A DNA stretch of 25,023 nt from a virus: positions 1 to 25,023 of the IMG/VR virus record IMGVR_UViG_3300043399_000208, one strand, 5' to 3'. Positions 970 to 17,559 of this stretch are shown here, in pieces; within the stretch, counting starts at the first letter, position 1; each line of letters starts with the position of its first letter. The position numbers and the translations under genes are program-made. Below the pieces are notes generated by a model. That model saw only the letters and a program-made list of their open reading frames with translations. It had not been told where the DNA came from and made no database searches.

Positions 970-1220
970 TAGACTTCCTCATATGTCTCTTCAAAGATAT
1001 CCTTGGCACAAGGATAAAACTCTCCTCGTACCCCGCGAATTACATAATCACCTTCCCTAGCAAGCATATCGCCCTCTAGGGTTTCGATTACAAGATTGTT
1101 CTCTCCTGCCCAATAAGCACGGGTATCTGTATTATGAATCCAATCAACCACATTCTGAATAGATTCGTTGGTTAACTGCATAGCCTCAACAGCAATAGGC
1201 TTCTTTACATATCTCTTCAC
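969..1220 (-). CDS. PGDYG-type phage protein
   Basis: This 83-residue protein starts at GTG, overlapping the RNA ligase stop as GTGA, with GGAGGG ten bases upstream. It has the pattern of small phage proteins with a PGDYG-type domain: KKPIAVEAMQ at the start, a central WAGE strand, REGDYVIRGVRGEFYPC and a DIFEETYE end. These are common in phages of Gram-positive hosts, and their function is unknown. Family recognition is from conserved wording, not a search. Confidence 0.8.
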   Translation of the reverse strand: MKRYVKKPIAVEAMQLTNESIQNVVDWIHNTDTRAYWAGENNLVIETLEGDMLAREGDYVIRGVRGEFYPCAKDIFEETYEEV

Positions 1221-1759
1221 TCAAAATCCCTCCGCTTGATCTTTGCTCGTTGTGAACCATACCAGAATACAATACCCTCATGGCCTTTGTCAAGGTCATT
1301 AAGCAGAAAATCCCTAATGCCCTCGTAGGAACGGTCTTCAATAACTACCTGATCCCAACCATGGGGCACTAGAACATGCTGTGTGAAGCCCTCAGGATTA
1401 CCGTTAATCTTAGGGCCACACAGTTCATACGTTCCTTCACCACGATAGGGGTATTCTGAATCATATGCTTCCAGAAAATACTTGTAGAAAGATGAAGTCT
1501 CAAGGGGAACCCACCCAATAGTCTTTCCAGTTACCTCGTCATAGTTAACTAGAATAAAATCATCTGGGGTGTTGCCGCCAGCCTTAATTTCACGACGGGA
1601 AAACCAATTTTCTCCATCAAAGATTACGCATGTTCCATCATATTTAATAGTAGCAATTCCTTTACCATCAAATACCCATTGACATTCAGGGTTAATCTGA
1701 TTGATTACATACTTACGATCTTGCTCATCACGGAGGAAGATCGTAGGAATCTTCTTCAT
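1217..1759 (-). CDS. RNA ligase (DUF5565-like nucleotidyltransferase)
   Basis: This 180-residue enzyme of the covalent nucleotidyltransferase superfamily would seal RNA 5'-phosphate and 3'-hydroxyl ends through an AMP-lysine intermediate. Motif I is IKYDGT with the candidate nucleotidyl lysine K39. A motif III-like GTYELCGPKI lies near residues 109-118. Motif IV is EGIVFW at 161-166 and motif V is AKIKRR at 172-177. The length suits compact RNA ligase 1 types and is too short for a DNA ligase with an OB fold. The ATG overlaps the upstream stop (ATGA), with GGAG six bases before it. Since the phage also carries tRNAs, tRNA repair is a plausible job, but that is inference. Confidence 0.82.
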   Translation of the reverse strand: MKKIPTIFLRDEQDRKYVINQINPECQWVFDGKGIATIKYDGTCVIFDGENWFSRREIKAGGNTPDDFILVNYDEVTGKTIGWVPLETSSFYKYFLEAYDSEYPYRGEGTYELCGPKINGNPEGFTQHVLVPHGWDQVVIEDRSYEGIRDFLLNDLDKGHEGIVFWYGSQRAKIKRRDFE

Positions 1760-5276: not shown

Positions 5277-5287
5277 ATATTCCTCCG

Positions 5288-5525
5288 TGGAGCAGGCGAG
5301 AATCGAACTCGCGTCCCATTGCTTTCCAATATCAGCGTCTTTGTTACATATATCTTACATTATCGTACTTAATGTACATTATATATTACATTGCCACTTT
5401 CTGTTCCCGTGGAGTGGCCCCACGGCACTCATGCTGCGAGTGCGTATGCGTTTTGTGTAGCGCCGTTTATTTTTTGTTTGTCGTGCTGCTGATACTTTCC
5501 TACAAGGTCGAAACCTTTCTGGCCC
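5288..5525 (-). ncRNA. ssrA: tmRNA (ssrA), compact phage form
   Basis: The 5' end GGGCCAG pairs with the 3' end CTGCTCC in six of seven acceptor positions. The 5' domain has GGTTTCGACC, the tmRNA-typical D-domain sequence. The 3' domain has GGGACGCGAG, TTCGATT and CTCGC, a canonical T-arm with discriminator A. Between them an open tag frame ends in TAC GCA CTC GCA GCA TGA, giving YALAA. It is probably GATQNAYALAA if resumption is at GGC, as judged from the ATAAAC just upstream. A CCGTGG/CCACGG hairpin follows the tag. At about 238 bases it is much shorter than the usual 350 or so, so some pseudoknots must be missing. CCA is not encoded. Confidence 0.92.
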
Positions 5526-6977: not shown

Positions 6978-7000
6978 ATTTATATTATACCTTACTTTTG

Positions 7001-7081
7001 TGCCCGAAGAGGGATTCGAACCCTCACGCCTTTCAGCAACGCATTTTGAGTGCGTCGTGTCTGCCATTCCACCACACGGGC
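7001..7081 (-). tRNA. tRNA-Leu(CAA)
   Basis: This 81-base class II tRNA has a long variable arm, anticodon loop CTCAAAA (anticodon CAA) and canonical T-loop TTCGAAT. The acceptor is GCCCGTG with TTCGGGC, with a mismatch at pair 6 and a G-U at pair 7. Discriminator A. CCA is not encoded. Confidence 0.93.
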
Positions 7082-7082
7082 T

Positions 7083-7157
7083 TGGCTCCCCGCCAAAGAG
7101 TCGAACTTCGATTCCTGGAACCAGAATCCAGTGTCTTGCCAATTAGACGAACGGGGA
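7083..7157 (-). tRNA. tRNA-Gln(CUG)
   Basis: This 75-base gene has acceptor TCCCCGT/GCGGGGA, D-loop AATTGGCA, anticodon loop TTCTGGT (anticodon CTG) and T-loop TTCGACT. Discriminator G, followed by an encoded CCA. It lies one base from tRNA-Leu. Confidence 0.92.
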
Positions 7158-7162
7158 ATATG

Positions 7163-7675
7163 CTAGCCGTGCTGCCTTCGATATTCGTACATAATAATAC
7201 CAGAAGCCACGCTAACGTTCAATGACCTTACGCTACCAAACATGGGGATGGAGAGAATATAATCTGCTGAATCAAGGATGGTATCTGGAATTCCCTCCTT
7301 CTCTTCACCATAAACAAAGATTGAATTCTTTGGGATATTAAAATAATCAAGATTACGATGACGATAATCATTCACCATATTTTCTACACAGATAATTGGT
7401 CCTTCTGGCTTATGCTCAAGAAAAAAATCCCAGTTAGCGGCATAGTGAATATCTTCATAATGATATGTTCCTACTGCCCCGCGCTTATCCCATTGCTTAC
7501 GGCCAACAAACCAAATATTCTTACCTGCAAATGCATTATGATTACGAACACCCACAGACTTATTAAAATCGTGAGTAAGATTAAGAAATACAGATGTGAA
7601 GTTAGCACGCTTTGTACTAATATTATATTTGATTTCATCCAGAGTCATAAACTTAAACTCATCAATGACGTTCAT
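7163..7675 (-). CDS. SpoU/TrmH-family RNA 2'-O-methyltransferase
   Basis: This 170-residue SPOUT enzyme would transfer a methyl group from S-adenosylmethionine to a ribose 2'-hydroxyl, most likely in tRNA. Motif 1 is NLTHDFNKSVGVRN (residues 32-45) with the conserved Arg44. Motif 2 is GEEKEGIP (123-130). Motif 3 is IPMFGSVRSLNVSVASG (143-159), the knot that binds the cofactor. It lacks an RNA-binding N-terminal extension, like minimal TrmL/TrmH proteins. Motif 3 wording is closer to TrmH (Gm18) than to TrmL. AAAGGA lies seven bases before the ATG. The gene sits between tRNA-Glu and tRNA-Gln in the same transcript, so modification of the phage tRNAs is a fair inference. Confidence 0.88.
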   Translation of the reverse strand: MNVIDEFKFMTLDEIKYNISTKRANFTSVFLNLTHDFNKSVGVRNHNAFAGKNIWFVGRKQWDKRGAVGTYHYEDIHYAANWDFFLEHKPEGPIICVENMVNDYRHRNLDYFNIPKNSIFVYGEEKEGIPDTILDSADYILSIPMFGSVRSLNVSVASGIIMYEYRRQHG

Positions 7676-7697: not shown

Positions 7698-7769
7698 TAG
7701 CCCGTGAGGGTACTGCCCCCTCTTCTGCGCCTTGAAAGGGCGCGATCCTAACTTTTAGACGAACGGGCC
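7698..7769 (-). tRNA. tRNA-Glu(UUC) with non-canonical D-loop and T-loop
   Basis: Acceptor GGCCCGT/ACGGGCT, anticodon stem GCGCC/GGCGC and loop CTTTCAA (anticodon TTC) are well formed. The T-stem GAGGG/CCCTC encloses the loop GGCAGTA instead of TTCRANT. The D-loop AAAAGTTA lacks the usual GG pair. It matches the abnormal pattern of the tRNA-Gly at 9038-9111. Discriminator A. CCA is not encoded. Confidence 0.85.
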
Positions 7770-7774
7770 TTGCG

Positions 7775-7847
7775 AGCCTCAAGACGGAATCGAACCGCCG
7801 ACATTCTCATTACAAGTGAGACACTCTACCAACTGAGTTATTGAGGC
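7775..7847 (-). tRNA. tRNA-Thr(UGU)
   Basis: Acceptor GCCTCAA/TTGAGGC is perfect. The D-loop AGTTGGTA is canonical, the anticodon loop CTTGTAA gives UGU and the T-loop is TTCGATT. Discriminator U. The 3' sequence is CGCA, so CCA is not encoded. It is the first tRNA of its transcript. Confidence 0.93.
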
Positions 7848-7851
7848 GTAA

Positions 7852-7887
7852 CCAGAGCAATTTGCTTTCGCAGGGATTGTTCTCTGG
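7852..7887 (-). ncRNA. Structured leader hairpin before the tRNA cluster
   Basis: The RNA begins CCAGAG and ends CTCTGG, six pairs. A second helix ACAAT/ATTG follows, and then an inner stem TGC-GAAA-GCA with a GNRA tetraloop. It starts about five bases after the expected transcription start of the promoter at 7899-7927 and ends four bases before tRNA-Thr. It could be a stabilising leader or a protein-binding element. No U-run follows, so it is not a terminator. Confidence 0.5.
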
Positions 7888-7898
7888 CCTTGTCGAAT

Positions 7899-7927
7899 AT
7901 TTTACACTATTGATTTGTTTGTGTCAA
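7899..7927 (-). promoter_or_regulatory. Promoter of the tRNA/methyltransferase transcript
   Basis: TTGACA, an exact 17-base spacer and TAAAAT lie on the minus strand about 50 bases before tRNA-Thr. The likely unit is tRNA-Thr, tRNA-Glu, the methyltransferase, tRNA-Gln, tRNA-Leu and the gene at 6438-6977. The -35 and -10 lie inside or beside the end of the small frame at 7907-7990. Confidence 0.8.
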
Positions 7928-7990
7928 GCAATTAGGCCAGCCATTTTCATCGTACTCAAAATATTTTTTGTGTACGTCACACCACTTCAT
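7907..7990 (-). CDS. Possible 27-residue microprotein
   Basis: The ATG at 7990 overlaps the TGA of the DUF7455-like frame (ATGA). It reads MKWCDVHKKYFEYDENGWP and ends NCLTQTNQ, with a WCDVH start and a second Cys that hint at a small metal site. The coding evidence is only the coupling, and the end of the frame overlaps the promoter. Confidence 0.4.
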   Translation of the reverse strand: MKWCDVHKKYFEYDENGWPNCLTQTNQ

Positions 7991-8214
7991 GCGCTTGACT
8001 GAGAAGGCCTCTCGTTAAGTTTATATGTTTCATCAACAATCTCAAAGGCGTAGGCCCTGATTGCATCCTCATGCTTAAGAAAATGATGGCGTCAGAACAA
8101 AAGATCTCCTGCGGTACCCTCTACCCATATAAAAGCCTGGGAGCCGCAAGCATCACAACGATCATTTGCATTCAGAGTATCGGACTGTTCCTGCACTTCT
8201 ATCATCGTATTCAT
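7987..8214 (-). pseudogene. DUF7455-like zinc protein with an in-frame UGA at a conserved Cys codon
   Basis: The frame from the ATG at 8214 reads NDRCDACGSQAFIWVEGTAG, then GDLLF, then UGA at 8092-8094, then RHHFLKHEDAIRAYAFEIV and DETYKLNERPS to the TGA at 7987-7989. Actinobacterial DUF7455 proteins have RCDxCGAQA followed by LLFCxHH and a DETxRL end, so the UGA (codon 41 of 76) stands exactly where a zinc-binding Cys is expected. The rest of the frame is intact and its stop is coupled to a further ATG. A nonsense mutation, a sequencing error, readthrough or selenocysteine recoding could each explain it. Many other genes here end in TGA, so UGA is normally a stop. Confidence 0.7.
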
Positions 8215-8241
8215 TATTATACCGCCCATTTCTTGTCGTTG

Positions 8242-8670
8242 TTATTGTATATCGTACCAGGACGGTACATGTGGTGTCAAGAGCAATTTCATGTTTGCTT
8301 CCTCTGGTGTTGACGAAGCCTTTTTACGATTGCATTTTATACAGGCTGCTACAACATTTGTCCATACCGTTGTTCCACCGCGAGAGCGAGGAATAACATG
8401 ATCTACTGTTGTAGCGTGCTGTCCACAATAAGCACAACTATGCTTGTCCCGTTGAAAGAGTTTATTCTTTGAGAATCGTGGACTATGCTTTCGCCATGTT
8501 GTTTTGACATACCTTACTAATCTTAAAACAAGTGGTTTTGGAAAGTCGCCAAACATTTCATCTGACGCTTCTTCTATGACTGCAACTTCACGAACAAGCA
8601 TCTTTATGGCATGTTGAACAGAAACTCTTTGAAGTGGCTCATAGCCTGCATTCAATATAAGTACGCTCAT
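8242..8670 (-). CDS. HNH endonuclease, actinobacterial type
   Basis: This 142-residue protein has the N-terminal LILNAGYEPLQRVSVQHAI and a central RLVRYV, the layout of a widespread actinobacterial HNH family. The HNH site comprises C79-x2-C82, VDHVIPRSRGG (His91), NVVAAC and C110-x2-C113-N. The Cys pairs bind zinc, and His91 and the Asn residues form the beta-beta-alpha metal site. It would cut DNA, with unknown specificity. There is no evident ribosome site before the ATG, so the start is less certain than the domain. Confidence 0.88.
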   Translation of the reverse strand: MSVLILNAGYEPLQRVSVQHAIKMLVREVAVIEEASDEMFGDFPKPLVLRLVRYVKTTWRKHSPRFSKNKLFQRDKHSCAYCGQHATTVDHVIPRSRGGTTVWTNVVAACIKCNRKKASSTPEEANMKLLLTPHVPSWYDIQ

Positions 8671-8693
8671 ATCATAACCATTTTATCATTTTG

Positions 8694-8945
8694 TTAGATG
8701 CCAAGGCTTTCCAGAAACTTCTGCTTTGGCATTGCCCCTGTTGCCCGTGCTACATCTTCGCCATTTTCCGTCACAATGAAGGTTGGCACGCCCATTACAC
8801 CCTTTGACTTTGCATAATCTGGCTCAGCATCAATGTCTACCATTTGATACTCTAGATCTGGACGCTCTACAAGAATCTGGCTGATCATTGGCTTCATCAT
8901 CTTGCATGGTCCACACCATTCTGCTGTAAAGTGAATCAACTTCAT
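8694..8945 (-). CDS. Thioredoxin-like disulfide reductase
   Basis: This 83-residue minimal thioredoxin fold has WCGPC (C11, C14) after the first strand and the cis-proline motif GVPTF at 52-56. It is shorter than cellular thioredoxin (about 105), like phage and archaeal versions. It would reduce disulfides in the cytoplasm, perhaps for a ribonucleotide reductase or virion proteins. AAAGGA lies seven bases before the ATG, and tRNA-Arg is directly upstream. Confidence 0.92.
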   Translation of the reverse strand: MKLIHFTAEWCGPCKMMKPMISQILVERPDLEYQMVDIDAEPDYAKSKGVMGVPTFIVTENGEDVARATGAMPKQKFLESLGI

Positions 8946-8964
8946 TTTATTTCCTTTCTGTAAG

Positions 8965-9036
8965 TACCCCCGACAGGATTCGAACCTGCATCATACTGGG
9001 TAGAAACCAGACGTTCATCCATTGAACTACGGAGGC
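8965..9036 (-). tRNA. tRNA-Arg(UCU)
   Basis: Acceptor GCCTCCG pairs with CGGGGGT with two G-U pairs. The D-arm is GTTC/GAAC with GG in the loop, and the anticodon loop TTTCTAC gives UCU. One outer anticodon-stem pair is a T-T mismatch. The T-loop is TTCGAAT. Discriminator A. CCA is not encoded. Confidence 0.9.
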
Positions 9037-9037
9037 T

Positions 9038-9111
9038 TGGAGCGGTAGACGGGTAACGCTCCCGCTTATCTAGTTTGGAAGACTAGCGCATTGCTTTTAT
9101 GCTACTACCGC
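9038..9111 (-). tRNA. tRNA-Gly(UCC) with non-canonical D-loop and T-loop
   Basis: Acceptor GCGGTAG/CTACCGC, D-stem GCAT/ATGC and anticodon stem CTAGT/ACTAG are perfect, and the loop CTTCCAA gives UCC. The T-stem GCGGG/CCCGT encloses AGCGTTA, and the D-loop is AAAAGCA without the GG pair. Discriminator U, then an encoded CCA. The 5' end overlaps the stop codon of the upstream HNH gene. Confidence 0.87.
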
Positions 9112-17453: not shown

Positions 17454-17485
17454 ATTTATCAACTCCTTTATTAAATTATACACGG

Positions 17486-17559
17486 TACGCCACTTGGGAA
17501 TCGGACCCAACTCTAGGATGTATATAAGACACCATCTGACCACCAGCCAGCCGTGGCGC
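17486..17559 (-). tRNA. tRNA-Ile(UAU)
   Basis: Acceptor GCGCCAC/GTGGCGT, anticodon stem GGTGT/ACATC with loop CTTATAT (anticodon TAT, codon AUA) and T-stem TTGGG/CCCAA. The T-loop is TCCGATT, with C instead of U at position 55. Discriminator A followed by CCG, so CCA is not encoded. It stands alone between TerL-side genes and 17453. Confidence 0.82.

Follow-up and report, generated by a model that had tools for sequence, protein, structure and literature searches.

Alternative D-loop/T-loop elbow in two phage tRNAs, shared with hundreds of other phage tRNAs and with the only His and Phe tRNAs of a marine bacterium

The DNA stretch analyzed here (the window) comprises 25,023 nucleotides of the virus record IMGVR_UViG_3300043399_000208 and belongs to a tailed phage whose large terminase is about 54% identical to those of Streptomyces phages such as Karimac and Naboo. 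Its minus strand carries an array of tRNA genes, including tRNA-Leu(CAA) and tRNA-Gln(CUG) (7000 to 7157), tRNA-Glu(UUC) (7698 to 7769), tRNA-Thr(UGU) (7774 to 7847), tRNA-Arg(UCU) (8964 to 9036), and tRNA-Gly(UCC) (9041 to 9111), the latter with U73 and followed by an encoded CCA at 9038 to 9040. tRNA-Arg lies directly downstream of tRNA-Gly, and this Gly-Arg pair is syntenic in relatives. A SpoU-family RNA 2'-O-methyltransferase (7163 to 7675, minus strand; Pfam E value of 3e-19, with weak NCBIfam matches to RlmB, TrmL, and TrmH, all below the cutoff) is located between tRNA-Gln and tRNA-Glu. We also detected a divergent tmRNA gene (5285 to 5525, minus strand; Rfam RF00023, 49.0 bits against a gathering score of 47) with a canonical GTTCGATTC T-arm, which was not reported by ARAGORN, and a 180-amino-acid ORF (1217 to 1759, minus strand) with a subthreshold match to RNA ligase 1 (RLIG1, E value of 0.002), a possible RNA repair gene. 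Among the window ORFs checked against Pfam, in what is only a 25-kb fragment, none matched an aminoacyl-tRNA-dependent ligase.

Two of these tRNAs, Glu and Gly, depart from the others at the elbow. Both are complete cloverleaves with 7/4/5/5-bp stems, in which all helices close with standard or wobble pairs, and 7-base anticodon and T loops; the T-stems and the anticodon loops (CTTTCAA and CTTCCAA) are ordinary, without the change at an anticodon nuclease cleavage site expected of a tRNA that evades such an enzyme. However, tRNA-Glu has the D-loop AAAAGTTA (7749 to 7756, minus strand) and the T-loop GGCAGTA (7711 to 7717, minus strand; G54 G55 C56 A57 G58 U59 A60), while tRNA-Gly has the D-loop AAAAGCA (9092 to 9098, minus strand) and the T-loop AGCGTTA (9054 to 9060, minus strand). 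In tRNA numbering, G18 has become A, G19 is kept, U54 has become G (Glu) or A (Gly), U55 has become G, C56 is kept, A58 has become G (Glu) or U (Gly), and position 60 is A. Thus, the canonical GG and TTC elbow is absent from both, and A18-G55 stands in place of G18-Psi55, combined with G54-G58 in Glu and A54-U58 in Gly. The Leu, Gln, Thr, and Arg tRNAs have TTCGA-type T-loops and GG D-loops. tRNA-Ile(UAU) (17484 to 17559, minus strand) has the T-loop TCCGATT, i.e., C55 in an otherwise canonical loop. The observation made in the preliminary description, that these two tRNAs share matched departures in the D-loop and T-loop while the others remain canonical apart from one base in tRNA-Ile, is therefore confirmed.

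Standard tools recovered these genes only in part. ARAGORN found Gly but not Glu, and the Rfam tRNA model gave Gly 51.7 bits (gathering score, 29) and did not list Glu at an E value of ≤1. In contrast, a covariance model built from 46 odd-elbow tRNAs of other contigs ranked exactly these two best, Gly with 74.5 bits (E value of 2.5e-23) and Glu with 63.7 bits (E value of 1.2e-19), while the next tRNA of the window reached 37.4. ARAGORN found 1 of 109 tRNAs of the commonest odd form.

To assess whether the association between loops exceeded chance, we wrote a scan that considers only the stems and the anticodon loop, leaving the D- and T-loops free, together with our own rule for assigning positions 18 and 19, and applied it to loci retrieved for reasons unrelated to loop sequence. 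Within the phage family defined by the terminase and the neighboring SpoU gene, 125 distinct tRNAs gave 117 GG/UC, 7 AG/GC, 1 GG/CC, and no mixed form. Family members have the SpoU gene with and without odd tRNAs, so there is no exclusive link between this methyltransferase and the elbow, although TrmH is the Gm18 enzyme. We then ran pattern scans of viral contigs (at least 120 rows in each of three scans, which therefore do not provide frequencies), removed the tRNAs that had matched the patterns, and tabulated the rest. Among the 1,402 whose D-loop could be read in only one way, 1,175 were G18/U55, 221 were A18/G55 (in 81 contigs and all 20 isotypes), none was G18/G55, and 6 were A18/U55, at least two of which have a GG just outside the interval considered for positions 18 and 19. 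Shuffling D-loops among tRNAs of the same contig gave a mean of 437 concordant 18-55 combinations of 637 (maximum, 468) against 634 observed. These counts are not phylogenetically independent, although the within-contig shuffle and the 20 isotypes speak against a single origin. Positions 54 and 58 also varied in a matched way (U-A, 1,431; A-U, 104; G-G, 58), and half-forms with only 54-58 changed exist. A further elbow class, found in contigs such as L145/L467 and often in tRNA-Arg, has GA in the D-loop and TTT in the T-loop, with A19-U56 in place of G19-C56 (46 loop-unselected cases), and 23 loop-unselected tRNAs combine GG in the D-loop with CC at positions 55 and 56. A megablast search of L145, an odd-rich contig, against named phages gave no match.

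The odd elbow is conserved while the stems around it change. The tRNA-Glu of the window and the tRNA-Gly of loci L049/L053 share the D-loop AAAAGTTA, the variable region AGAA, and the T-loop GGCAGTA, although every stem differs. When we located the tRNA-Gly of Mosig-like Pelagibacter phages by the adjacent clamp gene rather than by their loops, 77 of 77 readable genes had the odd elbow (three loci were too short and one showed no tRNA). They represent 26 distinct sequences; in the 25 with a 4-base variable region, the D-loop is invariant and the T-loop has two states, while the stems vary with compensation, the anticodon stem at all positions. In the Mosig genome (MT647606, 7779 to 7852; 10001 to 10074 of our locus L227), this tRNA-Gly overlaps a gene annotated as a hypothetical protein, as does the tRNA-Glu of Stenotrophomonas phage BUCTxx99, and in this phage group the Gly anticodon alternates between UCC and the unusual ACC. 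In 46 odd tRNAs of many phages, 97.8% of stem cells were paired, against 52.5% after shuffling. Random loop substitutions or broken stems in relatives, which had been set beforehand as grounds for rejection, were not found. Together with the closed stems, the matched loops, the encoded CCA after Gly, and the strong hit with an independent model, this contradicts the idea of decayed genes or a scan artifact, whose only support is that standard tools miss or underscore these tRNAs.

A second alternative is compensated drift, in which elbow mutations and their compensations would accumulate without advantage in partly redundant phage tRNAs. In its favor, the elbow alternates between forms within one phage family (on a terminase tree of 19 relatives, the Gly elbow changes at least twice by well-supported branches and three times by parsimony), and several independent alternatives exist (A18-G55, A19-U56, A54-U58, and G54-G58), as expected when only the fold is selected. 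However, single-change intermediates at 18-55 are almost absent (6 of 1,402), and the state is conserved in the 77 orthologous Gly genes, in nearly all tRNAs of one phage contig, and in nonredundant cellular tRNAs (see below). We consider drift unlikely, although it cannot be discarded.

The most extreme case is a phage contig designated G007 (IMGVR_UViG_3300031524_000008; loci L461 to L464), in which 36 of 37 tRNAs have the odd elbow, the exception being a canonical tRNA with a CUA anticodon (L462, 4653 to 4723, minus strand). This contig carries a nearly full tRNA set, two RNA ligases of the T4 repair kind, and a PARP-like protein, and reading TAG through raises its ORF coverage from 0.81 to 0.87. 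Such a set could suggest evasion, i.e., that the altered elbow hides phage tRNAs from host (or phage-encoded) nucleases or modifiers that read the canonical D-loop/T-loop, so that translation continues when host tRNAs are destroyed. Phage tRNAs do escape tRNA-targeting defenses by sequence changes, albeit in the anticodon loop (PMC10264068), and the distant relative Annadreamy has an RNA ligase and a polynucleotide kinase beside its tRNAs. However, the 23 Annadreamy tRNAs read are all canonical despite these repair genes, most phages leave many tRNAs canonical, SAR11 chromosomes use the same elbow, and no elbow-reading defense nuclease was found in the papers examined. Evasion, also raised in the preliminary description, is thus neither shown nor excluded, and we regard it as possible but not likely. 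In its boldest and comparably doubtful form, phages would convert isoacceptors one by one, in the extreme (G007) the whole set, building a parallel tRNA pool that an elbow-specific defense cannot see.

The elbow is widespread in viruses and not unique to this phage, but it is not restricted to viruses. A first genome scan with one loop form (13 hits in 257 Gb) had led us to consider it a viral feature, a reading that was dropped when one of the hits proved to be a conserved chromosomal tRNA of SAR11. Pattern scans for the AGCGTAA form in 399 genomes of the SAR11 phylum, few of them SAR11, and in 392 genomes of a second phylum gave no match. The single complete-looking contig (1,199,990 bp) of one SAR11 genome, G021, has 33 tRNAs, three of which are odd and are the only ones with their anticodons, Val(GAC), His(GUG), and Phe(GAA); His and Phe are also the only ones for their amino acids. 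tRNA-Val(GAC) was odd in all 30 SAR11-family genomes whose matching locus was read. Odd tRNAs also appeared in an isolate genome of Rhodovibrio sodomensis (tRNA-His inside a cluster of canonical tRNAs, possibly a mobile tRNA array; L216, 2310 to 2379) and in the alphaproteobacterium G960, a bacterial genome outside the SAR11 searches (tRNA-Thr[GGU]; L614, 1502 to 1571), on what may be the chromosome or a mobile element. By comparison, then, this elbow type is compatible with essential decoding on the ribosome. This argues against a general role of these tRNAs as nonribosomal amino acid donors, in which the elbow would lower EF-Tu or ribosome use and the tRNAs would feed a Fem-, PEARL-, or GNAT-type ligase. 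A specialized tRNA-Gly isoacceptor is used for peptidoglycan in Staphylococcus aureus (PMC4810233), and Gly and Glu are among the odd isotypes, but such a role would restrict the elbow to the amino acids used by the ligase, and all 20 isotypes carry it. We consider this explanation very improbable.

Next, we examined the pseudouridine synthase TruB, which makes Psi55 and needs the T-arm motif 53-GUUYRANYC-61 (PMC7912444), absent from the window tRNAs (G-GGCAGTA-C and G-AGCGTTA-C). No TruB match was found in G021 and four other SAR11 genomes (G035, G092, G096, and G164), while all 14 control genomes had one. TruB was found in 78 of 86 Alphaproteobacteria sampled but in only 28 of 99 genomes of the SAR11 family (some of the remaining 71 are incomplete). 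G023, of the same family and with TruB, has canonical His, Phe, and Val(GAC) tRNAs in the 1.148 of 1.160 Mb read. Across the 99 genomes, a match to the odd Val was found in 19 of 71 TruB-negative and 2 of 28 TruB-positive genomes (Fisher P = 0.03, not corrected for phylogeny, with many incomplete genomes and bearing in mind that a missing DNA match does not show a canonical tRNA). The link is thus correlative, and loss of TruB is not a strict requirement, since three TruB-positive genomes (G041, G066, and G960) carry an odd tRNA.

Altogether, we interpret these genes as working translation tRNAs with an alternative, coadapted elbow. The comparisons show that A18-G55 takes the place of the G18-Psi55 contact with G19-C56 kept; that, independently, G54-G58 or A54-U58 takes the place of U54-A58, usually with A60 and a 4-base variable region; that the stems are under ordinary selection; and that the elbow is compatible with ribosomal translation. 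For the window tRNAs themselves, expression, aminoacylation, EF-Tu binding, and decoding are inferred from sequence alone. We also infer that A18 sits beside G55 and that G55-C56-R57 makes the same sharp turn as U55-C56-R57, a GNR turn in place of UNR, as is established for GNRA loops and U-turns. A further inference is that the main advantage, or permissive condition, is independence from elbow modifications. Psi55 and Gm18 cannot be made on these tRNAs, nor m5U54 and m1A58 in the G-G and A-U forms, so that in this view the fold would not wait for host TruB, TrmA, TrmH, or TrmI, and the elbow would be tolerated or favored where modification is absent or too slow, as may happen during fast tRNA synthesis in infection. 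We are highly confident that these are functional elongator tRNAs with a matched alternative elbow, but only tentatively, at somewhat less than even confidence, do we propose modification independence as the reason phages keep it, and our confidence in the explanation as a whole is moderate. Most phages mix odd and canonical tRNAs, which modification independence alone does not explain, and the hosts of most of these phages, although unidentified, probably have TruB. The interpretation given in the preliminary description is therefore only partly supported: its reading of a kept G19-C56 pair with A18-G55 in place of G18-Psi55, coevolved rather than decayed, is strongly supported, whereas its analogy to nonribosomal tRNA-Gly is not supported as a general explanation.

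The G18-Psi55 contact is taught as near-universal and Psi55 as the most universally conserved tRNA modification. Here, the contact is replaced cleanly and repeatedly, in phages and in SAR11, one of the most abundant groups of ocean bacteria, including genomes without the Psi55 enzyme, which provides natural pairs to ask what the elbow modifications do that the bare fold cannot. It also means that phage tRNA counts, codon supply analyses, and defense studies based on ARAGORN-like tools miss many tRNAs. We found no paper reporting A18/G55 tRNAs in a search that did not extend to subscription journals, and the SAR11 tRNA signature paper discusses tRNA-His identity without the words T-loop and TruB.

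Compared with the canonical bacterial elongator tRNA (Rfam RF00005), the window tRNAs retain the cloverleaf, U33, the anticodon loops, G19-C56, G53-C61, U8, and A14, but they replace G18-Psi55 and U54-A58 and offer no site for Psi55, Gm18, m5U54, or m1A58. The staphylococcal nonribosomal isoacceptors are likewise tRNA-Gly with altered loops, but here the change covers all isotypes and occurs in sole cellular tRNAs, and no ligase was found among the ORFs checked in this 25-kb fragment. Phage tRNAs that evade tRNA-targeting defenses (van den Berg et al. 2023, PMC10264068; PMC11555353) also differ from host tRNAs at contact positions, but those differ in the anticodon loop or act as replacements (the text of the first paper mentions neither elbow, D-loop, nor T-loop), while here the anticodon loops are ordinary. 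Finally, engineered suppressor tRNAs with altered D/T-loop contacts from the Steinberg group are reported to show that the L-shape can be held by noncanonical 18-55 and 54-58 combinations; those are laboratory selections, whereas the tRNAs described here are natural, recurrent, and conserved.
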